Source: Halobacteriovorax marinus (GTDB lineage: Bacteria; Bdellovibrionota; Bacteriovoracia; Bacteriovoracales; Bacteriovoracaceae). Taken from it: 64,000 nucleotides of DNA. The position numbers and the translations under genes are program-made. The notes below the pieces were generated by a model. The model worked only from the letters and a program-made list of their open reading frames with translations, had not been told where the DNA came from and searched no databases. How positions within the stretch are numbered: the stretch's first letter is position 1; each line of letters begins with the position of its first letter. Location: the NCBI GenBank assembly GCA_002163155.1, contig MAAO01000006.1, positions 310,001 to 374,000 of the forward strand. Reading direction: 5' to 3'. Below, piece by piece: positions 33,851 through 47,691 of the stretch.

Positions 33851-33885
33851 GAATCTATAAGTGTTAAAAATCCAGGAGGATGTCA

Positions 33886-34281
33886 ATGGCAGTAAAAAAG
33901 AAAGCAACTAAGAAAGTAGCTAAAAAAGCCACTAAAAAAGTTGCAAAGAAAGCAACTAAGAAAGTAGCTAAGAAAAAAGTTGCAAAGAAAAAAGTAGCTA
34001 AGAAAGCAACTAAGAAGAAAGTTGCAAAGAAAAAAGTAGCTAAGAAAGCAACTAAGAAGAAAGTTGCAAAGAAAAAAGTAGCTAAGAAAGCAACTAAGAA
34101 GAAAGCAGCTAAGAAAAAAGTAGCTAAGAAAGCAACTAAGAAGAAAGTAGCTAAAAAAGCGACTAAAAAAGTAGCTAAGAAAGCAACTAAGAAAAAAGTA
34201 GCTAAAAAAGCGACTAAAAAAGTAGCTAAGAAGAAAGTTGCTAAGAAAGCAACTAAGAAAGCACCAGCTAAAAAGAAGTAA
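33886..34281 (+). CDS. Alanine/lysine-repeat histone H1-like DNA-binding protein
   Basis: 131 residues made almost only of Lys, Ala, Val and Thr in repeats such as KKVAKKATKK and KKKVAKKATKKK. It resembles the C-terminal tail of histone H1 and bacterial H1-like proteins (Bordetella BpH1, chlamydial Hc2). It should bind and compact DNA without sequence preference. The ATG at 33886 is used because AGGAGG is 6 bases upstream, whereas the ATG at 33880 abuts it. The DNA repeats themselves are near identical, so copy number may vary by slippage. A strong terminator follows. Confidence 0.88.
   Translation: MAVKKKATKKVAKKATKKVAKKATKKVAKKKVAKKKVAKKATKKKVAKKKVAKKATKKKVAKKKVAKKATKKKAAKKKVAKKATKKKVAKKATKKVAKKATKKKVAKKATKKVAKKKVAKKATKKAPAKKK
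33889..34266 (+). repeat. Tandem coding repeats in the histone-like gene
   Basis: Degenerate tandem units built from AAGAAAGTAGCTAAG and AAAGCAACTAAG. Each unit encodes KKVAK or KATK. Some longer blocks repeat exactly (for example the AAGAAAGCAACTAAGAAG type). Expected to be unstable by recombination or slippage. Confidence 0.85.
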
Positions 34282-36140: not shown

Positions 36141-36181
36141 TCTCCTCAATTTTTAGTAGAATATTAATGGTTGAGGTAAAA

Positions 36182-36799
36182 ATGCGTACTAAATTACTCC
36201 TTTCATTTCTAATTTTTATACTTTCATTAAAGTCTTTTGCTCTTTTAGAAATAGGGGCGGACTTTAGCTACGATAGAAATATTTTTGGATCCGATAGGCA
36301 GAGTAAACACACTTCAAGGACTTGGAGAGGATCGATCGCTGCTTATCTTTGGAAGAATACCGCTCTTGAAATCAATTACAATGATTCTGAAGATGAAACT
36401 ATTGTGAGAGATACTGTGGAGTATCCTGATTTAAATGTTTCAATCCTGGGTCAGCAAACGACTATTGCAACAAAAACATATGGAGTAGGACTTAGACAGG
36501 CCTTCGCATCTAGAAAATCTCTTATTCAGCCTTCGATTAGTCTTGGTTATGCAAAATCATTTAAAACAACAACTTCAGATTATACTATTAGAGATGATGC
36601 AGGCGGAGCTGTTTCAACATCTGTGCAAGCGCCAGTCAAATCAAGAAGAGACTCTATGTTTGGAACTTTTTCTTTAAAGTTAAGATTGTCCAAGCGGTTA
36701 GGAATCAGAGGTTCAATTCAAACTTATATAAATGCTTTCGATTGGAATGGTGCTAAAGATGATTTGAGGTACACCGTCGGATTAACTTGGCTTCTATAA
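36182..36799 (+). CDS. Outer membrane beta-barrel protein
   Basis: 205 residues. Signal peptide 1-20 (LLLSFLIFILSLKSFA). The mature part has alternating polar and hydrophobic strands (ALEINYNDSEDE, KTYGVGLRQAFA, SISLGYAKSFKT, FGTFSLKLRLSKRLGIRGSIQTYINAF) and a terminal strand RYTVGLTWLL ending in a hydrophobic residue. This fits an 8-stranded OmpX/OmpA-like barrel. ATG 36182 is preferred over 36167 because GAGG lies 6 bases before it. It overlaps the next gene by 13 bases. Confidence 0.75.
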   Translation: MRTKLLLSFLIFILSLKSFALLEIGADFSYDRNIFGSDRQSKHTSRTWRGSIAAYLWKNTALEINYNDSEDETIVRDTVEYPDLNVSILGQQTTIATKTYGVGLRQAFASRKSLIQPSISLGYAKSFKTTTSDYTIRDDAGGAVSTSVQAPVKSRRDSMFGTFSLKLRLSKRLGIRGSIQTYINAFDWNGAKDDLRYTVGLTWLL

Positions 36800-37848: not shown

Positions 37849-38799
37849 ATGAAAAAACATATACTCCTAATTGACCCTCTTTCTAAGTTGAGTATATCTA
37901 AAGACTCAACTTTAATGTTTGCTCTTTCTCTAAAAGAAAAAGGTTTCGATGTTTCACTAATATTCGAAGAAGACTTCTTCGTTGTGAATAATGAAACTCC
38001 AAATCTTAGAGTCTATGATTTTGAAGGGACATTTGAAGAGGATGGCTGCTACTTAGAGAGCTTTGAGTTAACTACTTCGAGAATATGGCTAGCGGATAAA
38101 CAAAGTTGCTTACACATGAGATTAGACCCTCCATTCGATGGAAGGTACCTTCGGTTTTTATGGATGCAGAGATATTTTAAAACTTTGGGAGTAGAAGTTC
38201 TAAATGATCCTGATGGAATTTTACTTTTTAATGAGAAGCTTTATGCCTATGAACACGAATCAAGCCTTGAGACATACGTAGGAAGCTCTTTAAATGGTTT
38301 TTTGAGCTTCGTTACGAATATTAAGTCTAAAGGCCATACAGAGCTAATTCTGAAGCCCTTAGACCTTTATCAAGGGATAGGTGTTCAGAAGATTTCGCTA
38401 GATGAAGATTTTGAATCTATTTTTCAAAAGAAAATTGTAGAGTTTCAAGGTCCAGTAGTTGTTCAGCCTTTTGCGAAGGAAATTTCAAAAGGTGAAGTGA
38501 GAAGTTTATACTTTAAGGGAAAAGAATTAGGTTCAATTTTAAAAGTTCCAAAGAGTGGAGAGTATCTTGCAAACATTGCTCAAGGAGCAAGCTTTGATAA
38601 ACACGATTTAAATGATTACCAAAGAAAATCTTGCGAAGAAATCTGTACTGAACTTTCAAAATATGGAGTTGAATTGGTGGCCTTTGATATTTTAGGAGAT
38701 AGTATTTCAGAAGTGAATATTACCTGCCCAGGCCTTTTGGTTGAAGTTTCTAAGGCCTATGGCAAGAATTTGAGCTTTGATATAATTGATCTACTTTAG
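37849..38799 (+). CDS. GshB-like ATP-grasp protein (glutathione synthetase family)
   Basis: 316 residues. Bacterial glutathione synthetase features are seen in order: N-terminal Rossmann-like strand ILLIDPLSKLSISKDST, MRLDPPFDGRYLR, LNDPDGILLFNEKLYA, the ATP-grasp LILKPLDLYQGIGV, VVQPFAKEISKGEVRSLYFKGKELG, and the metal site EVNITCPG. The usual RANxxxGG block is degenerate (LANIAQGASF), so the substrate may differ from gamma-glutamylcysteine. No gshA lies near. Convergent overlap of 4 bases with the next gene. Confidence 0.75.
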   Translation: MKKHILLIDPLSKLSISKDSTLMFALSLKEKGFDVSLIFEEDFFVVNNETPNLRVYDFEGTFEEDGCYLESFELTTSRIWLADKQSCLHMRLDPPFDGRYLRFLWMQRYFKTLGVEVLNDPDGILLFNEKLYAYEHESSLETYVGSSLNGFLSFVTNIKSKGHTELILKPLDLYQGIGVQKISLDEDFESIFQKKIVEFQGPVVVQPFAKEISKGEVRSLYFKGKELGSILKVPKSGEYLANIAQGASFDKHDLNDYQRKSCEEICTELSKYGVELVAFDILGDSISEVNITCPGLLVEVSKAYGKNLSFDIIDLL

Positions 38800-39521
38800 T
38801 AACGAGGACCTGGTAGATCTTGCGTTTCATCGGTAGAAAATTCAATTTGAAATTTTACACAATCAGCATATCCTACAGCTGAAAATGGGCAATACCCTGG
38901 CTGATTTGGAAAACCATTATTTGCATAATAGTTACAAGTGTAATCCCATTGTACATCTTTAACTTCAATAACTAGTGGATCACTAGTATTCGCTGGCACA
39001 GAAAATTCTTTCACGTAGGAATATGATCCTACCGCGATATCATCAAATGTATGTTGAAAGACACAAGAACCCTGACTCGATCTTACACAAACTGATAATT
39101 TCAATTTTGTGTAGGGAAGTGGTGAGTAGTTACATTGCACATTATTTGAATCTGTCGAATAAATGGAAGGTCCACTGAGCGCTTTAATTCTAATATTTAA
39201 TTTAGAATCTGTTTGAAAGATGTATTGATCATTGGAACCAATATTTCTATTAGAGGCCCAGAAAATTCCATTCGGAGGTGGATTTCGATTTGGACTAGCT
39301 GTTCCGTGCACAACGACTTCAGGTAGTGAGTAATAACTTGGTAGGGATGGATCAACGTATGGATCTCCCGCAGGATCATCTGTTCCTGGATCTGTTGACG
39401 GGGGAACAACCGAAGATTGAGTCGTAGAAGTACTACTTGATTTCTTGTTAGTCGTTTTCTGAACACACGAAGTGAGCGATAGTATTACTAATAAGGTTAA
39501 TATTTTCTTTTTCCGATTCAT
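38796..39521 (-). CDS. Ser/Thr/Pro-rich lipoprotein of unknown function
   Basis: 241 residues. Lipobox LSLTSC. A Ser/Thr/Pro/Asp-rich linker (about 20-65) leads to a strand-rich Cys-containing domain (paired cysteines in VQCNYS, LSVCVRSSQGSCVF, DYTCNYY, PGYCPF, YADCVKF), probably disulphide-stabilised. The domain is not recognised. The ATG at 39521 is preferred: GAGGA sits 7 bases upstream, while the ATG at 39527 abuts it. One of the best sigma-28-like promoters of the window lies just upstream. Confidence 0.68.
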   Translation of the reverse strand: MNRKKKILTLLVILSLTSCVQKTTNKKSSSTSTTQSSVVPPSTDPGTDDPAGDPYVDPSLPSYYSLPEVVVHGTASPNRNPPPNGIFWASNRNIGSNDQYIFQTDSKLNIRIKALSGPSIYSTDSNNVQCNYSPLPYTKLKLSVCVRSSQGSCVFQHTFDDIAVGSYSYVKEFSVPANTSDPLVIEVKDVQWDYTCNYYANNGFPNQPGYCPFSAVGYADCVKFQIEFSTDETQDLPGPRY

Positions 39522-39551
39522 AATCATTCCTCGTCTTTCTATTCCTTAGTG

Positions 39552-39579
39552 TTATCGTCAAAATCTAAAAAAAACTTTA
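39552..39579 (-). promoter_or_regulatory. Sigma-28-like promoter of the Ser/Thr-rich lipoprotein gene
   Basis: On the minus strand, TAAAGTTT (39579-39572), 12 bases, then GACGATAA (39559-39552). The -35 is a perfect FliA consensus and the -10 matches 7 of 8. Predicted leader about 23 bases, with a proper ribosome binding site. Confidence 0.7.
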
Positions 39580-39677
39580 GTTTTCAAGGTGAGCAAAACT
39601 GTACAGTATATAAGTCTTTGATAATATTAAGGTCTAAGAGGTTGCGTGGATAAGGGGCTAAAGGTAAAATATTAGAG

Positions 39678-40151
39678 ATGAATGAACACTTTGAAACTTT
39701 TTTTAATAAGAAATCCTTGGAACTTTTCCCTTTTGCTTATGCATTAATTCCTGATGATCTACAGGCTTGTCAGTTAATTGTGGATGCATCTGAGCTTTTA
39801 CAAATTGATTCAAGAGTCTCGAACAAGTTAACGAGATATTTTGTAGATTCAGAATTGTTGAGAGAGGATCAAGTTCTACTAACGACAATTCTGTATTCTC
39901 ATGTCTATAGATTGGCTAAGAAGCGAATTTCTCAGTTGAGCGGTAGCTTTATCATACCAAAGGGACATGGTGCTTTTTATCGAACTCCTTTGGAGAACCG
40001 CGCTGTAGTATTTCTAAGAGAGAAGAATTCTTTTGATTGGGAGCGAATTGGGACTATTTTTGGAAGTGACAGAATTAAATCAATTCAGGAATATCATATT
40101 GGAGTAAATTCAATGCACGATTTCCTCGGAAGACCTGTGGAGTTAAGTTAA
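39678..40151 (+). CDS. Probable divergent ECF-like sigma factor
   Basis: 157 residues, helical. The C-terminal part has a region resembling sigma region 4 (RTPLENRAVVFLREKNSFDWERIGTIFGSDRIKSIQEYHIGV), with the RAVVxL...SxxEIxxIxG rhythm of ECF factors. The N-terminal half would be a reduced region 2. The main support is context: a zinc-motif membrane protein of anti-sigma type starts 3 bases downstream. It could instead be a related helix-turn-helix protein with no sigma activity. Confidence 0.5.
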   Translation: MNEHFETFFNKKSLELFPFAYALIPDDLQACQLIVDASELLQIDSRVSNKLTRYFVDSELLREDQVLLTTILYSHVYRLAKKRISQLSGSFIIPKGHGAFYRTPLENRAVVFLREKNSFDWERIGTIFGSDRIKSIQEYHIGVNSMHDFLGRPVELS

Positions 40152-40154
40152 TTT

Positions 40155-40565
40155 ATGCAAGAAGCCATTTCAATTCAAAATATCTGTCCTCACACGCATA
40201 AAGCGCCACTTGTTCTTGAAAATGGAGAACTCTCTGGTAGCTTTCTTTCAAGACACTTTGAACAATGTAGTACTTGTAGTGATAAAATTGAGGCATTAAA
40301 AATAGATCGTAATTCATACTTAAAACAAATTCCTTTTGTTAGTGCTCCCAAAGAAATTAAAGTCATTTTCAAACAAGAATCAAATGAGCTTAGCGTAAGA
40401 GTGAAAAGACGAATACGCTCCATGAAGATGAAAAGGTTTGAAGAGTTGACTAGTGGTCTTAAGGATTTCAGTTTGGATGTGAGAAAAGCCTTACTAAGTA
40501 TGGAGTTCACTTTAGGAGCAGGCCTTGTTCTTAGCGTTTGGGCTTACTTGAAATTTATAAATTAA
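40155..40565 (+). CDS. Membrane-anchored zinc anti-sigma (ZAS)-like protein
   Basis: 136 residues. The N-terminus holds Cys11 and, 23 residues on, His34-x3-Cys38-x2-Cys41 (HFEQCSTC), the zinc anti-sigma signature. The spacing is close to RsrA (Cys11, His37, Cys41, Cys44). A basic middle segment (VKRRIRSMKMKR) is followed by a C-terminal membrane helix (about 113-133). This predicts a cytoplasmic zinc domain that binds the upstream sigma-like protein. Almost no periplasmic part remains, so release may be by zinc or thiol chemistry rather than an outside signal (inference). Confidence 0.62.
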   Translation: MQEAISIQNICPHTHKAPLVLENGELSGSFLSRHFEQCSTCSDKIEALKIDRNSYLKQIPFVSAPKEIKVIFKQESNELSVRVKRRIRSMKMKRFEELTSGLKDFSLDVRKALLSMEFTLGAGLVLSVWAYLKFIN

Positions 40566-41506
40566 TTTATATATAGAGAATAATAAATAGTAAAAGTTCC
40601 ATCTTTTTGCAGAAGATCTTTGGGAGGATTTGGAACTTTCCTCATTAGATCAAGTGTCTTTAGAAATAAATCATGGACTTCATCACTTTGCGTCGATTGT
40701 AAAATTTTAACAGATGTTATGTTGCCATCTCTATCAAAAGTAACTCTTCCATTTAGCCTGTGGCGATCATTGTTGAGATGTTTCTTCAATATAGGTTTCG
40801 ATCTCAAAATATTGTAATAAGTTTTAATAAAAGAGTTTAAATAAGTTTCATAAGTTCTTTTTTGAAAAGAATAAAAAATCTTCTCAACACTGTTTAGCTC
40901 ATCCTCAGGAATTCCTTCGGGAGGGTCAAATTGGAGATTGAAGCCTTTTCCAGCAATGGCCTGGGCAGCATTAGAATTAGCAGAAAGTTTTTTTAATATA
41001 TCGCCTTGAAGTTGCTTTTGTTGCTTTCTTAAGCGTTGTTTGACGGGTGGTTTTGCTGTGAAAAGCAGTTTAGATTTATCTGGAACTGTTCGTAGTTGCC
41101 TTTGAATATTTTTAAGAGGTTTTGTATTTGTTCCTACATTCGGATTGGCCCCTAACTGACTCATATCTATAGATTTAGGACTTTTTTTAGATCTTACTGA
41201 GCTGGTCGCTTGAGTTCCCTTTCTCGTTTTGGTAGCTCCATTTCCCTTTGCCGTTTTAGTCGGTGTTGAGAAAGTATTTTTGCGTCCACTTTTGACTCCC
41301 ACTGTTCGGAGTTTCTTTGAAGGGAGCTTTTTAAAGCTCTCTACTGTGAATAGTTTGCGCTCAGGCTTTACGCTTAAGTCGCTTTTTATATCTGAACCTA
41401 AATTGAATACGAGGGTACTAGCTAAGAAAAGTATTAAGTTAAATACAAGTGAAAATGCAAAGGAAATGGAATATCTTTCGATTTGATTGTTTTCCCAGGT
41501 GGCCAT
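40562..41506 (-). CDS. TonB-family C-terminal domain protein
   Basis: 314 residues. One N-terminal membrane helix (about 15-35). A long Lys/Thr/Ser-rich linker (40-200) is followed by a C-terminal domain (about 215-314) with LNGRVTFDRDGNITSVKILQST and LDLMRKVPNPPKDLLQKDGTFTIYYSLYI, as in TonB/TolA-type domains. It would transmit inner-membrane energy or span the periplasm. No exbB/exbD genes are nearby. Convergent with the anti-sigma-like gene (4-base overlap). Confidence 0.8.
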   Translation of the reverse strand: MATWENNQIERYSISFAFSLVFNLILFLASTLVFNLGSDIKSDLSVKPERKLFTVESFKKLPSKKLRTVGVKSGRKNTFSTPTKTAKGNGATKTRKGTQATSSVRSKKSPKSIDMSQLGANPNVGTNTKPLKNIQRQLRTVPDKSKLLFTAKPPVKQRLRKQQKQLQGDILKKLSANSNAAQAIAGKGFNLQFDPPEGIPEDELNSVEKIFYSFQKRTYETYLNSFIKTYYNILRSKPILKKHLNNDRHRLNGRVTFDRDGNITSVKILQSTQSDEVHDLFLKTLDLMRKVPNPPKDLLQKDGTFTIYYSLYIN

Positions 41507-41627: not shown

Positions 41628-41706
41628 CCGCTATGAATTTTCAATAGGTTAAAGGAATTATCACTGTTGTAAATTGATTCACTTAGGTTTTTCCAAGGAT
41701 AGGAAA

Positions 41707-43152
41707 ATGAAGAAACAAGTTCAAACATGGTTGAAAAATAAAAAGGCAATTGTTGGAGTAGGTGTAACTGCTGTATTAATCCTTTCTGGAGTTTTTCAAC
41801 ATCGATTGAATACTAAATCAACTAATATATCTTCTCTTCAGGGAAATCTCTCAACCTGTTTCTCTAGAGTTAATCAAAGTTATACAGCGAAAGTTATAGG
41901 GGACAGTTCTTCTATGTATCTTGAGTCTGGTTTTATGAAAACAACAGAAGAGTGTTTTGCTGAAACTAGTAGTCAGTTTGAAGAAATTTTTAGTTCTACA
42001 GCTAAGAAAATGGGACAGGCATTGAATGCTCTCGTGAGCGATGTTCATTGGTTTCATGAACGAGTAGAGGAAACTACGAATTCGTTCTCGGAGCAGGACT
42101 CTGAGGTCGTTCTGAGTAACCTAAGTGATCGTTTCGAAAAATTAGAAATGAAATATGATGAAGTAGATGGTGAAGTCATAAGAAAAGTAGAGAGCATTTC
42201 ACTCTCAATAAGTAATATGACTGTTTTATTATTTATTTTATCTATACTTGCTCCTTTATTACTCCTTTGGGATTTAGCTGAGAGAAAAAATTTAAAACAA
42301 AGAAACGGTCTCACTGAAAAATCCGCAAGAGATAGGCTGGCCAGTGATAAAGCAGTTGTTCATTCTGAAGTCGCAGATATTATTAAAGAGGCCTTAGAGC
42401 AGAATAAGCTAGTTTATTGTTCAAAGTTATTTTCTCAATATCATGCTTTAAATCCAGTAAAAAATGTTGAAGACACTGTAGGGCGCATACAAACGATTTC
42501 TCTAGAGGCTGGAGAGTTAAGTGAAAATCAAATTGATGACATTTGGAGTCAAACAGAAAATGATGACTCACTTGTTATGAACGCTGAGGGAACTGAAGTT
42601 TCTAATGATGTTTATGATGGACCAGTGACAAATTTAGATTCGACTCTGACAACAGTTTCTACTCACTTGTCGAATAAACTCCTCGCTGAGGGTGTCGTTA
42701 TAGATTTAAATATTTCTGAAAACTTATTTGTCCAAGCTGAAGAAGAGGCAATAGAGCAAGTTGTTTATAATTTAATTATGAATGCTGTAAAAAATTGTCA
42801 AGTATCTGATGCTTCTCCCAGAATTCAAATCGAAGCCAAAAAGCTTGGTGATAATATTTTTGTAAATATTGAAGATTCAGGTCTTGGTTTTTCAAAAGAT
42901 TTTTTAAGTGCAGCTAATGGCCTAGGGGATCTTGATGATGAAATGCCTTTATCTCTTAAAATTTCGAGAGAACTGGTTGAGGACTTTAATGGCTCAATGT
43001 CATTTGAAAACCTTTATGAAGATAAAGAGATTTCAGGCTCAAAGGTTCAAGTTGTATTAAGAAGCAATGGAGAACAGCTTAAAAGAGTCGCGAGTATTAC
43101 AAAGGGTACTAAAAGAGAGATTCTAGAGTCAATGAAACAGCAATCTGTTTAA
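41707..43152 (+). CDS. Membrane sensor histidine kinase-like protein without a clear phospho-acceptor His
   Basis: 481 residues. Membrane helices 14-30 and 171-190 enclose a helical periplasmic domain. The C-terminal 320-455 is an HATPase_c fold: N box EQVVYNLIMNAVKN (Asn355/Asn359), G1 DSGLGF (390-395), G2-like NGLGD. The region where the dimerisation/phospho-acceptor helix should lie (195-320) shows no H-box; nearby His (HSEVADIIKEAL) has little family context. It may be a divergent kinase or a regulatory ATPase. ATG 41707 is used (AAGGA 7 bases upstream). No response regulator is adjacent. It ends 1 base before the convergent ChaN-like gene. Confidence 0.7.
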   Translation: MKKQVQTWLKNKKAIVGVGVTAVLILSGVFQHRLNTKSTNISSLQGNLSTCFSRVNQSYTAKVIGDSSSMYLESGFMKTTEECFAETSSQFEEIFSSTAKKMGQALNALVSDVHWFHERVEETTNSFSEQDSEVVLSNLSDRFEKLEMKYDEVDGEVIRKVESISLSISNMTVLLFILSILAPLLLLWDLAERKNLKQRNGLTEKSARDRLASDKAVVHSEVADIIKEALEQNKLVYCSKLFSQYHALNPVKNVEDTVGRIQTISLEAGELSENQIDDIWSQTENDDSLVMNAEGTEVSNDVYDGPVTNLDSTLTTVSTHLSNKLLAEGVVIDLNISENLFVQAEEEAIEQVVYNLIMNAVKNCQVSDASPRIQIEAKKLGDNIFVNIEDSGLGFSKDFLSAANGLGDLDDEMPLSLKISRELVEDFNGSMSFENLYEDKEISGSKVQVVLRSNGEQLKRVASITKGTKREILESMKQQSV

Positions 43153-44784
43153 TTAAAAAAACCTCTTTCTAAAGGTCTTGTACTTTCTTTTTGGTAGCAA
43201 GACCTTACAAAGATATAAGTAATTTTCTTGATTCATTTCTTTATGGCATAGAACTTCCATTATCTCCGGAAGTTTTTTCGATTTTTTCTCAAAATATTGA
43301 TCAAATAAAATGTCGCCAAACATATACCCAATAATTTTAGCCATCTTATAGATCTTAGAAAGATTTTGTCCTTTCAAAATTTCAGATATATTAATCTCTC
43401 TAGTGTCGTGTTCAATTAATTCGAGACACTGTAAATGGTAATTTCTTTCTAGATTTGTTTTCATTCTAGATTTCTCAAAAAGATCTGAATAGAGATCACA
43501 CTTTCTGTAGGGATTAATAATCTTGGAACAAAAGTAGGCAAAACAAAATTGAGACACAAAGAATGTGAATCTCTTCTCTTGAGAGGAGTGTGAAAGTATG
43601 CTTACTGCCTCATTCTTTTGTAAATTTCTTTGGATTTGCCATAAGTGTATTCCCCCAAGATAGGAAAGACGATTAATTGAATAATTAGAGCAATAGTAAT
43701 CATTTGTATTAGGAACTTTAAAACTTCTACCTTTAACCACAAGATCTTTAAAATATTTAGAAACAGTTGGCTTTTTTATTTTCTCTACCTTCTGCAAGAT
43801 GAAATTCATCTTTTGGTGATCATATAGGTTGAAATCTTCAAGAATATCTCTATCTATTTTTAAGTTTAATCCCTTGGCCATTTTCTCCGCTAAGAAAACA
43901 AAGGTGTCTGTGGCATTTTCATTAAAGCTCTTGAGTCCAGACTCCATTATATATTCATGAATATCAAACTCAGGATCTTCAAGTAAATTTTCGTACCAGT
44001 AAATCATACTTTCGTACTTAACCCATGGGGCAGAGGATTGAATTGAAAATTCATTTTCCTCAAATTCAATGATTTGAGTTTTTTTTCGGCCCATCTGGGT
44101 ATCTTCTAATTTCCAGTAAACAGCATCTAAGTTCTGGTGGATTATTGTTTGCTTGAATTTCGCATTAGTCCTTTTTTCTACTTCTCTTGGAAGTTTTGTG
44201 GGGATGATATGGTATTCACCAAAGAGAACTAGAATTTTAGACTTTGGAAAAATTGATAGATATTCAACAATGATTTCTGAAGCTTTATTATCACGCGCAG
44301 AAAGAGCGCCATTTGAATTTAGAGCAAGTATTTGATGACCACCCTTTTTAGCTAATTCAAAGAATACTTTGTACTGACTCCATGGAAATCTCCATGATTC
44401 GTAATAATTTATATTCTCTAGGAATTCAATTTCAGTCAAATGACCTCTTATATACTTATCAATTTCTTTTTGATGTTTAATATGAACAAATTCAACGCCT
44501 AGTACTATATGGTCATTCGTTTCAGTTATTGAGCGAATTAATCGCTGAAGGTTTCTAGAGCTTTGGTCAAATGAATGGAAATCTCCTAGATAAATAATCT
44601 GAGATCTTTTGATAGATTTGATTAATTTTTGATAACTTGAAATTAAGAAATCTCTGCTGGCGTATCTTCTTTGACTTCTTTGATAAGAAATAAGCTCTTT
44701 TGAAAGTTGGCCTTCGAGGGACAAGGCCTTCTTCTTCATATAATTGTAAATATTTTTTCGAATATTAGTTATATCTGTTTTCAT
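43153..44784 (-). CDS. Long ChaN-like (haem-binding uptake family) protein
   Basis: 543 residues. Residues about 40-240 match the ChaN/PF04187 domain: IIYLGDFHSFDQSSRNLQRLI, VLGVEFVHIKHQKEIDKYI, YESWRFPWSQYKVFFELAKKGGHQILALN and ILVLFGEYHIIPTKLPREV. No signal peptide is seen, and the C-terminal 300 residues have no family I recognise. ChaN itself is a roughly 300-residue lipoprotein, so this is a longer, apparently cytoplasmic relative. Its 5' end faces away from the 949-residue gene upstream; both are on the minus strand 58 bases apart. Confidence 0.65.
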   Translation of the reverse strand: MKTDITNIRKNIYNYMKKKALSLEGQLSKELISYQRSQRRYASRDFLISSYQKLIKSIKRSQIIYLGDFHSFDQSSRNLQRLIRSITETNDHIVLGVEFVHIKHQKEIDKYIRGHLTEIEFLENINYYESWRFPWSQYKVFFELAKKGGHQILALNSNGALSARDNKASEIIVEYLSIFPKSKILVLFGEYHIIPTKLPREVEKRTNAKFKQTIIHQNLDAVYWKLEDTQMGRKKTQIIEFEENEFSIQSSAPWVKYESMIYWYENLLEDPEFDIHEYIMESGLKSFNENATDTFVFLAEKMAKGLNLKIDRDILEDFNLYDHQKMNFILQKVEKIKKPTVSKYFKDLVVKGRSFKVPNTNDYYCSNYSINRLSYLGGIHLWQIQRNLQKNEAVSILSHSSQEKRFTFFVSQFCFAYFCSKIINPYRKCDLYSDLFEKSRMKTNLERNYHLQCLELIEHDTREINISEILKGQNLSKIYKMAKIIGYMFGDILFDQYFEKKSKKLPEIMEVLCHKEMNQENYLYLCKVLLPKRKYKTFRKRFF

Positions 44785-44841: not shown

Positions 44842-47691
44842 TTATGAATTAATATTATTTGTAAGGATAGAGAGGATTCTAGAGTTGCAATTTTTCTCTA
44901 AATGGCTAATTGAGTCTCTAAGGCTCGTGTGATTTATAAGTATTGACTCTAGTTCTTTTGAGCTAGGAACTTTTAGATTTTGTAAAATAGAAGAGACTGG
45001 CATATCAACAGCAGATGAGAGAATAAACTTCATAAACTTTGCAAGGAGATCGGAAGTATACAGTTGAACAATTACCTTATCGCCAGAGATGAGCTGAATG
45101 TAGTGAGTGTTGTTATCAGGCTCAAGTCCCGTTTCAATGCTCGTAAGAGGTAAGTGTATATCACTAGGGTTCTTTAGAGGGATCTTAGGGAATATGTCCT
45201 CGTTCTTTGGGTAGATATTGTATGAAGAGCTCTTGATTAGCTGCTCTACAATCACAGGGTTCTTAAAGATCTCTGCAGGAGTTTGATCTAATTTCTCAAG
45301 TGAGTTGTTGAGACCTGTTTTAAAATGAGAAAGCATGCTCATTGTGTGCCAAGAGTATTTCTTAACTATTGAGTCGAGGAGCATGGCTGACTTTTCATAA
45401 TTTTCTTTTAAAGTTTCTGGGTGAGAATTTAAAATCTCAGATGAAGTTAGATTAAAAACATTGAAAGACTCTAAAAGATGCTCAGGAATATGTTGATTCT
45501 CTAAGAAGAATTTTGGAATAAGTAGAGATCTCAACTTTGACTTAATTTTGGTATATCCACCATTCAAGAAGAGTTGAATAATTTGTTTTCCAAGTTGAGT
45601 ATTAAAATACTCTCTAAATACATTTAAGTTAATATCATTTCTTTTTGGTATAAGTCCAAAATATTGAAAATAAGCCATTCCGTATTGTTCTAACTTAGCC
45701 TGGTAAACATCAGAAGAAGTTAGCTCAAGTATAATATTTTTTGGGTTTGTGTAGTTCACTATAAGAAGAAGTGGAAATCTTTCTTCATTTCTTATGGTAA
45801 TTCCTAAAAGTTCAGAAGTTACTCTGTTTTTTCGTCCAGAATTGTATTCACTGCTTAAGGTTTCAATCTGAAAGAAAGTATCAAATGGAGTACAAGAAGT
45901 AGTGAGGTTCTTGAAAAAGTTAGGATGTGTAATATTGGAAGAATCATTAGAAGTTGAGCTAAGTAGTAGTCCGTCTAATATTGCATCTTGATGAAAATCA
46001 AATGTTACACCTTCTGCGGGCTCTCCTTGATAAATAGGAGTAGAAGAAGGAGATTTTTGATCCATAAACCTATGAAGCTCTCCGACGAAGCTGTGAAACT
46101 TATTAAAAATTTCTAAATTTCCATTCCATCTAAAACTTAGGCAAGATTCTTTATCAGAACTAGCAATTGGAGTTAAGAAGGCAGGTTTAGAGAAATGTTT
46201 TCTCTTCTTAAAGATATATAAGTAACTGGCTATCTCACCACGACCAGTTAGCTGGTCAAAGTTAAATAAGGCTTCAATTTTAGTATCTTTTAAAAAATGT
46301 TCGATCTTATCACTTTGAGAAGGAACGAAGAACTTTTGATTTGTAAAAACGTAGAGATAACCACTCTTATCTAGCTCTTTTAATTGCGAACTAATTTGAG
46401 ACATCAGGTAGTGATGTGGGTTTTTCTTTGGAAGCTCCGTAAGGTTTAAAACAATTCTATCGAAAACTTGAGAGGTTTCCTTTATTTCGCTATTGTTAAA
46501 AATAGACATTTGTCCGGCTTCATTTGCTGAAGACTTTAAATGTTTGTCATTCATGACTGAACAAATAAGAGGAAGAACGTCGTGACCTTGAAATGTAGAC
46601 AATTCAATTAAAAAAGTTAGAAACTGAATTTCCTGACATATCTTAGTATATTTTCCATGAAAGAATTCTGAACCTGAGAACTCTGGACAAATAACCTTTT
46701 GCCAGTCTTCAAGAACATTATTCTCTTGGGCCATCCAATGGGAAAGGCTGAGTGAAGATAAATTATTTCCAGAGAACTTTGTTGAAAGAGTTGTTAACTT
46801 TTCTTTAGATCTCGTTTTGAATAGATTTTCAAATGGAGTTCCTTGCTCTTCACCATCATTTTCTAGCCAAGTAGGGAGACTGGTCAAAAGACTGTTCACA
46901 AATAGACCAAATGATTTGTGAGAATATGAGTGAGAGTATTCAAGCTCTGAAAGATCATATGTCGCAAGCTTCATCATTTCAGTAGTTGAAATTCGAGCAA
47001 GATTATTTTTAATATCAGTAACACTTTCACTTGTGTTTATTGATGGTCGGTACCAGCTGTATTGGTGAATTTTGAAAGACTCACATTTCAATTCTGTACT
47101 AGATCCTGTTTTAAAAATTCTACTAAGAACTGAGTTAGGATTATGTAAATCAATTTTATCAACACTAATCTCTAGTTTAGTTGCCAGAGCTAAGAGAAAT
47201 CTAGCTTTGTATAGGTAAACTGTTACAGATCTAAAGCAGTAGAGGTCAATAAAATTATCGATCTCTGGGGCGTATTGCTTAGATGTTGAAATGTAATTTG
47301 AAAACTTCGTAGAGTTATCTAATTTATTAGTATGAATGTTTTTAAATTCTATATAATTTAAAAATTCACTAAAAACTATTTTCTGATGGGATTTATTTCT
47401 ATTAATAATTTCTTTGAATTGGTTTTTAGCATCTGCAATTAAGGCGTTATGAGCCCTCTTAATACAGAAGCCTGGTCTAGATAGAAGACCTTCACCGCTC
47501 CACCCTGGAACAAGAAATGATTGTGGTTCAAATGATACTGTGTGATTTCCAGAAAATTCTGGAGGCAACTCGAGGTCTAAACTCCCTTGATTGGAGCTTC
47601 CAAGTTGTGCGGCCATAAGTCCTTGATTTATAGGGGACGAATTAAGCCAAGATAGTGCTGTAAATTGATCAGTATTCAATTCACACACCAA
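44842..47691 (-). CDS. Large protein resembling an N6-adenine DNA methyltransferase lacking the catalytic motif
   Basis: 949 residues from a TTG start. The middle (about 400-500) looks like the second half of an N6-adenine methylase: VFDRIVLNLTELPKKN where FDxIxxNPPY is expected, then LDKSGYLYVFTNQKFFV, FLKDTKIEALFNFD and ASYLYIFKKR (compare PGGxxxxVxPxxFL...RxxLLxxxxIxxIIxL...TxxLxFxK). A later block LGKQIIQLFLNGGYTKIKSKLRSLLIPKF resembles target-recognition or C-terminal parts of type I/IIG enzymes. NPPY is replaced by NLTE (416-419) and no FxGxG SAM loop is seen. It is therefore probably a non-catalytic relative. No partner restriction gene is present. Confidence 0.5.
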   Translation of the reverse strand: MVCELNTDQFTALSWLNSSPINQGLMAAQLGSSNQGSLDLELPPEFSGNHTVSFEPQSFLVPGWSGEGLLSRPGFCIKRAHNALIADAKNQFKEIINRNKSHQKIVFSEFLNYIEFKNIHTNKLDNSTKFSNYISTSKQYAPEIDNFIDLYCFRSVTVYLYKARFLLALATKLEISVDKIDLHNPNSVLSRIFKTGSSTELKCESFKIHQYSWYRPSINTSESVTDIKNNLARISTTEMMKLATYDLSELEYSHSYSHKSFGLFVNSLLTSLPTWLENDGEEQGTPFENLFKTRSKEKLTTLSTKFSGNNLSSLSLSHWMAQENNVLEDWQKVICPEFSGSEFFHGKYTKICQEIQFLTFLIELSTFQGHDVLPLICSVMNDKHLKSSANEAGQMSIFNNSEIKETSQVFDRIVLNLTELPKKNPHHYLMSQISSQLKELDKSGYLYVFTNQKFFVPSQSDKIEHFLKDTKIEALFNFDQLTGRGEIASYLYIFKKRKHFSKPAFLTPIASSDKESCLSFRWNGNLEIFNKFHSFVGELHRFMDQKSPSSTPIYQGEPAEGVTFDFHQDAILDGLLLSSTSNDSSNITHPNFFKNLTTSCTPFDTFFQIETLSSEYNSGRKNRVTSELLGITIRNEERFPLLLIVNYTNPKNIILELTSSDVYQAKLEQYGMAYFQYFGLIPKRNDINLNVFREYFNTQLGKQIIQLFLNGGYTKIKSKLRSLLIPKFFLENQHIPEHLLESFNVFNLTSSEILNSHPETLKENYEKSAMLLDSIVKKYSWHTMSMLSHFKTGLNNSLEKLDQTPAEIFKNPVIVEQLIKSSSYNIYPKNEDIFPKIPLKNPSDIHLPLTSIETGLEPDNNTHYIQLISGDKVIVQLYTSDLLAKFMKFILSSAVDMPVSSILQNLKVPSSKELESILINHTSLRDSISHLEKNCNSRILSILTNNINS

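Follow-up and report, generated by a model that had tools for sequence, protein, structure and literature searches.

A divergent ECF-shaped sigma and class I anti-sigma gene pair, predicted to be membrane-tethered, in Bacteriovoracaceae

Our analysis of the window (the whole 64,000-nucleotide stretch of DNA, taken from a genome of 4.5 Mb with its close relatives in Bacteriovoracaceae) indicated that two adjoining genes probably encode an ECF-shaped sigma protein and a class I anti-sigma partner; this assignment and the vertical inheritance of the pair are well supported by sequence comparisons and structure models. As the most likely single reading, to which we give about even weight, the two products would form a divergent, membrane-tethered ECF-type sigma/class I anti-sigma pair with a functional sigma factor. 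The sigma-like protein (157 aa, with sigma2 at residues ~1–90 and sigma4 at ~97–152) is encoded on the forward strand at 39,678–40,151, and the protein with the class I anti-sigma domain (ASD; 136 aa) follows on the same strand at 40,155–40,565, the two open reading frames (ORFs) sharing a frame and being separated by 3 bases. A sequence-only reading of this DNA had proposed these ORFs, with Cys11, His34, Cys38 and Cys41 and a C-terminal membrane helix in the downstream product, and all were confirmed. The four residues follow the H-x3-C-x2-C pattern with an upstream Cys (putative zinc site; codons at 40,185–40,277, forward strand), and hydropathy predicts a membrane helix at residues ~115–134 (40,497–40,556, forward strand; best 19-residue Kyte-Doolittle mean 1.58), which is also helical in the model and has almost nothing beyond it. 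Neither window protein had a convincing match in Pfam or NCBIfam. The suggestion of an unclassified group is plausible in that no model of these two collections recognises the window proteins, the ECF classification lying outside this comparison. The pair was also absent from the openly accessible literature that we found, including PMC11656739 (in which the word "sigma" does not occur), subscription journals lying outside that coverage.

With the family alignment as input, AlphaFold predicted a two-domain ECF-sigma fold for the upstream product with high confidence (pLDDT 91.3, pTM 0.87). The model holds sigma2 and sigma4 across residues 3–149 with a short linker, which is the domain make-up of an ECF factor, and contains no sigma1.1, sigma3 or receiver domain. 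When compared with solved structures, its best match was SigW from the SigW-RsiW complex (Z 16.0, rmsd 2.8 over 135 residues), in an alignment that spans residues 1–153 of the sigma-like protein; Bartonella RpoE (Z 15.4), SigG1 (Z 15.0) and the PhyR sigma-like domain (Z 14.3) were further matches. The predicted-structure check that the earlier reading had named for an ECF-like sigma factor therefore came out in its favour. SigW from the same complex and other ECF factors were also the top matches in Foldseek, which taken alone gave no match at E ≤ 0.001 for this model. A 35-row family profile had SigR sigma4 as its top match among solved structures (E 2e-4), followed by SigW (4e-4), and matched both halves of B. 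quintana RpoE (5uxx; E 5.6e-4); within its own genome it found another ECF factor at full length (columns 8–151, E 3.1e-4). A five-row profile of the genus matched no sigma factor, which suggests that this branch has moved far. As for the proposed HMM search with ECF regions 2 and 4, Pfam and NCBIfam gave no sigma match for the window protein itself, but Sigma70_r4_2 was matched by 5 of 35 relatives (best E 1.8e-4) and Sigma70_r2 by 1 of 35 (E 0.02). With so few HMM matches, the earlier description of a weak sigma region 4 is fair, although it overlooked region 2, the better conserved half.

The arrangement of the two genes is not due to chance, since relatives of both proteins keep the same order across Bacteriovoracaceae. 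In 94 of 105 loci a separate partner follows immediately downstream, often with a 4-base overlap, and a recognisable anti-sigma domain is fused into the sigma ORF in five (L079, L175, L184, L164 and L078; a fusion was flagged in seven, of which L182, with no fusion, and L185, with an unrecognisable C-terminal part, were excluded). The remaining six loci have no usable partner, in some cases at a contig end. The L079 fusion carries both the zinc site and the membrane helix; the other fusions, apart from that of L175, are less secure, because a single indel can fake a fusion of overlapping genes in draft assemblies. The 35-row profile matched in 112 of 129 Bacteriovoracaceae genomes and in 69 of the 73 good ones (≥90% complete, ≤5% contaminated), counts in which some weak matches (e.g., G129 and G053) may be other ECF factors. 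Among 98 relatives, single-sequence searches recovered the sigma-like protein in 34 and its partner in 15. In a sample of the phylum, 90 of 290 genomes matched at E ≤ 1e-6, 84 of them from Bacteriovoracaceae and the remaining six only weakly, and the named matches of the genus profile were Bacteriovorax or Bacteriovoracaceae assemblies, with one exception named only as Bdellovibrionales. The pair is one vertically inherited, syntenic Bacteriovoracaceae locus.

Both genes of the pair are missing from G006 with their neighbours intact, and the pair is absent beside the TonB-like and kinase-like genes in G026, G122 and G123. A very divergent sigma-like protein with no recognisable partner occurs in G130 (L202) and G035 (L203), and the sigma-like protein of G021 (L075) has no recognisable partner downstream. 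Among eight stretches taken from genomes where the sigma match was weak or missing, none showed a partner lacking a sigma; two of the eight (G036 and G054) break off too soon to judge. From these stretches it appears that the pair can be lost as a unit, that the sigma-like protein can outlive its partner and that the neighbours do not depend on the pair. The sigma/anti-sigma pairing that had been proposed is supported by co-inheritance, by a few fusions and by the match of the partner profile to the anti-sigma RsiW among solved structures (E 1.3e-3). A single-chain model of the pair, read through the in-frame stop, reached pLDDT 92.0 and pTM 0.81, with only the junction poor; this supports the compatibility of the two proteins, in a model where joining the chains forces contact. 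Coevolution was flat, in a test underpowered for so small a set of sequences: among the top 100 couplings of a mean-field DCA (98 pairs, Neff 89), 7 fell between sigma2.1-2.2 and anti-sigma helix 4 (null 7.0) and 4 between sigma4 and helix 1 (null 6.0).

Gene order around the pair is largely fixed in the first 37 loci, with MiaB (32 loci), a barrel protein (30) and a putative aminopeptidase (33), then a glutathione-synthetase-like ATP-grasp protein (32), a divergent lipoprotein-like gene (38,796–39,527, reverse strand; 33; invariant Cys21), the sigma/anti-sigma pair, a TonB_2-like protein convergent with the pair (40,562–41,506, reverse strand; 35), a histidine-kinase-like membrane protein (41,674–43,152, forward strand, probable start at 41,707; 36) and, after it, a ChaN-like protein (26). 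The TonB_2 domain was detected in 11 of 18 relatives of the convergent product, and a TonB-like gene in 113 of 129 genomes (68 of 73 good ones). The kinase-like gene is present in 122 of 129 family genomes and in all 73 good ones. HATPase_c was matched by just 9 of 28 relatives of its product, which has no conserved cytoplasmic His; four residues flanked by two membrane helices (Cys51, Arg54, Phe76 and Cys83) are invariant, as is the C-terminal Lys (K469) of KGTKRE. These sequence features suggest a pseudokinase whose tail is conserved. Another conserved neighbour (44,842–47,691, reverse strand; 949 aa, 29 of 37 loci) had no Pfam match at E ≤ 0.01. Further upstream, 33,880–34,281 (forward strand) encodes a 133-aa product that consists almost entirely of repeats of Lys, Ala, Val and Thr (KKATKKVAKK), which by eye we take to resemble histone-H1-like bacterial proteins. 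The same genome also carries a second, ordinary ECF factor (L190, G000:C12:166800-169000), matched in 48 of 124 family genomes, with an adjoining 86-aa soluble H-x3-C-x2-C partner.

A search for a promoter upstream of 39,678, as the sequence-only reading had advised, predicted one of sigma70 type on the forward strand, with a –35-like TTGCGT (39,642–39,647) and, 17 bases on, a –10 box TAAAAT (39,665–39,670) that ends 7 bases before the sigma ATG and predicts a leaderless start. With start codons set by the family profile, 78 of the 105 loci show a –10 box ending 5–8 bases ahead of the sigma start codon (500 shuffles: mean 9.1, maximum 19), and in the aligned loci a TT(G/T) –35 is enriched at an 18-base spacer and TGn often precedes the –10. 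No ECF-type autoregulatory promoter was recognised upstream of the sigma gene in the 105 loci, where the conserved pattern is sigma70-like. The close sigma70-type –10 box predicts a leaderless mRNA without ECF-type self-activation. Leaderless starts would not be unique to the sigma gene, since a close –10 box also precedes the TonB-like (14/35), barrel (11/30) and ChaN-like (7/26) genes, compared with 0–3 of 24–36 in the other six gene clusters. Leaderless mRNAs may be frequent in Bacteriovoracaceae, with the TonB-like (40,562–41,506), barrel (36,167–36,799) and ChaN-like (43,153–44,784) genes as candidates. In addition, a sigma28 (FliA)-like promoter, TAAAG-N17-CGATAA (39,552–39,579, reverse strand), faces the divergent lipoprotein gene; it is perfect in the window, and 43 of 105 loci carry it with ≤1 mismatch, against a mean of 1.4 and a maximum of 4 in shuffles. 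It is close to the FliA site TTAAG-N16-CCGATA given for Bdellovibrio attack-phase genes in the available part of PMC3627812, and the divergent lipoprotein gene may be an attack-phase gene.

The residues through which an ECF factor usually acts have diverged throughout the family. The D-L-V-Q-E pattern of region 2.2 and a basic –35 recognition helix are typical, not strictly defining, of ECF factors, and the 102 aligned relatives (of 105 loci; L182, L187 and L174 were left out) have Q-L-V-I-D in place of D-L-V-Q-E. The core-binding Gln is kept in none of them and is hydrophobic in 95, the Asp position is acidic in 7, and the last acid is retained in 97; these region 2.2 positions are presumably RNA polymerase contacts. 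Out of four basic recognition-helix positions, none is left in 6 relatives, one in 50 and two in 46, and the window protein has none, compared with 2, 3, 2 and 4 in the four ECF factors of the same genome that could be aligned there (4 of 6 alignable at sigma4, 2 at region 2.2). Because the relatives share ancestry, this loss may represent one evolutionary change rather than 102. In the available part of a class I ASD survey (PMC7406223), anti-sigma helix 4 is placed against regions 2.1-2.2, with helix 1 against sigma4, so these surfaces could serve the partner and not RNA polymerase. Taken with the contact loss, this makes a serious rival of a pseudo-sigma that has kept the sigma shape to bind an anti-sigma domain and has lost its role in transcription, a possibility that we nonetheless regard as doubtful. 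Sigma mimicry is known for PhyR (PMC4598750, as far as its available part goes), PhyR sigma-like domains are among our best structural matches, and the promoter looks constitutive. However, the protein has no receiver or other input domain, its region 2.4 helix stays basic (K/R at column 84 in 95 of 102), and three genomes (G021, G130 and G035) keep a sigma-like protein with no recognisable partner. Moreover, the two other sigma factors of the genome that we searched for were matched in 9 and 48 of 124 family genomes; neither is universal, and mimicry would thus have no obvious beneficiary. The narrower version, a family-wide pseudo-sigma locked to its own class I anti-sigma and made from a leaderless constitutive mRNA, seems to us rather unlikely.

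The anti-sigma partner bears on a different alternative, in which zinc loss or thiol oxidation at Cys11/His34/Cys38/Cys41 would free the sigma factor under intracellular stress, as in RsrA or ChrR. It draws on a complete H-x3-C-x2-C plus upstream Cys in the window, retained in 5/5 genus members, and the four ligands are invariant in 25/25 partners of one alignment, whose rows were chosen for having the motif (zf-HC2 is matched by 2 of these 25). Across 100 scored partners (of 105 loci; L182, L187, L174, L177 and L075 had no usable partner; the L186 zinc site was assigned by hand), however, the site is present in 57 and absent in 43, and the zinc-less partners are homologous to the others (hhalign Prob 97, E 8.8e-11). 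On the sigma tree, a quick tree with many weak branches, the zinc trait changed at least three times and the membrane helix at least nine. The zinc or thiol stress sensing suggested by the sequence-only reading is not supported, since 43 homologous partners have no zinc site in a pair that persists. Its "RsrA-spaced" label describes no more than the general ZAS pattern. In the available part of PMC7406223, the zinc motif occurs in ~48% of membrane-bound class I anti-sigma members, is dispensable for binding in RsiW, and is argued to be structural where members with and without zinc occur together. Together with the common zinc-less homologues, this survey speaks for a structural zinc site rather than a sensor, as judged from sequence, and we consider the RsrA/ChrR-type sensor improbable. 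Zinc site and membrane helix (the helix being called at a Kyte-Doolittle mean ≥1.25 and assigned manually in L047 and L057) occur together in 44 partners, the zinc site by itself in 13, the helix by itself in 1 and neither in 42. We dropped joint loss of the two (independent-pairs test, p = 1) and claim no association, given that despite its strong look it rests on about three zinc-trait changes. A further reading, to our mind very improbable, would make the pair and the histidine-kinase-like membrane protein one unit, in which the Cys pair of the latter senses the periplasm and signals to the anti-sigma. The kinase-like gene is a same-strand neighbour in nearly all loci, is present in every good genome and encodes invariant periplasmic C51, R54, F76 and C83 with the C-terminal K469, but block synteny may reflect vertical inheritance alone, and the kinase-like and TonB-like genes persist without the pair in G006, G026, G122 and G123, which argues that they have their own function.

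We therefore return to the ECF-type sigma/anti-sigma pair as the preferred reading. In its favour we counted the fold, the profile matches, the pairing, the one-chain model, the co-loss in G006, the promoter pattern, the sigma-like proteins without a partner (G021, G130, G035) and the lack of any partner without a sigma. Against it we counted the loss of contact residues, the lack of a self-activating promoter, the flat coevolution, the Foldseek search without a match at E ≤ 0.001 and the contact forced by the one-chain model. In the mechanism that we infer, a housekeeping-type promoter would drive basal production of the sigma-like protein from a leaderless, translationally coupled mRNA. The anti-sigma would wrap sigma2 and sigma4 and sequester the complex at the inner membrane; in the window model, a long predicted helix precedes its membrane helix. 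A membrane-side signal would then free the sigma factor; since hardly any of the anti-sigma is periplasmic, that signal would probably pass through a further membrane protein. The freed sigma would bind RNA polymerase and take part in transcription. The zinc site would play a structural role, with no sensor role assigned to it.

When compared with known systems, the pair is nearest to SigW-RsiW of Bacillus subtilis, the best structural match and the system whose anti-sigma is matched by the partner profile. The two share a two-domain sigma factor, an H-x3-C-x2-C motif, one membrane helix and an anti-sigma encoded next downstream. RsiW has a large extracytoplasmic part that is cut by proteases, whereas the window anti-sigma is almost without one. 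Likewise, the recognition-helix K/R residues of SigW are not kept in the window protein, and SigW autoregulates whereas a sigma70-type leaderless promoter is predicted here. With the soluble ZAS redox pairs SigR-RsrA and RpoE-ChrR, our pair shares the zinc ligand pattern and gene order, and the sigma-like family finds its best sequence match in SigR region 4; RsrA is a soluble protein, whereas the window partner is membrane-anchored and the zinc site is gone in many of its relatives. The PhyR-NepR-EcfG system has a sigma-like domain of similar length and fold, and, as a general likeness short of a residue-by-residue comparison with PhyR, our family likewise lacks usual contact residues. In contrast to PhyR, the 157-aa window protein consists of sigma2 and sigma4 with no receiver domain, and its partner is a class I ASD protein and not NepR. 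Sigma factors fused to an anti-sigma, some with a zinc finger and membrane helices, are described for ECF48, ECF52, ECF53 and IutY in the available part of PMC8999054; in our family such fusion is the exception (5 recognisable among 105 loci), with L079 having both zinc site and helix. Finally, the RpoE-like factors Bd0743 and Bd0881 of the related predator Bdellovibrio are ECF factors that, in the accessible part of PMC3464611 and unlike the window pair, have no downstream anti-sigma gene.

The variant described here, core in its family and predicted to be leaderless, with contact residues lost and the zinc site optional, appears to be new as judged from the literature covered here. Most ECF sigma/anti-sigma pairs are accessory genes, and this pair is near core in Bacteriovoracaceae, in a fixed neighbourhood, and is missed by Pfam and NCBIfam in the window genome. 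It also provides a natural experiment: with nearly half of the relatives zinc-less and the pair kept, the question of structural versus sensing roles of ZAS zinc sites becomes testable. If the pseudo-sigma reading were true, sigma mimicry would extend past alphaproteobacterial PhyR to a protein without a receiver domain, and a pseudo-sigma would be core to a whole, largely predatory, family.
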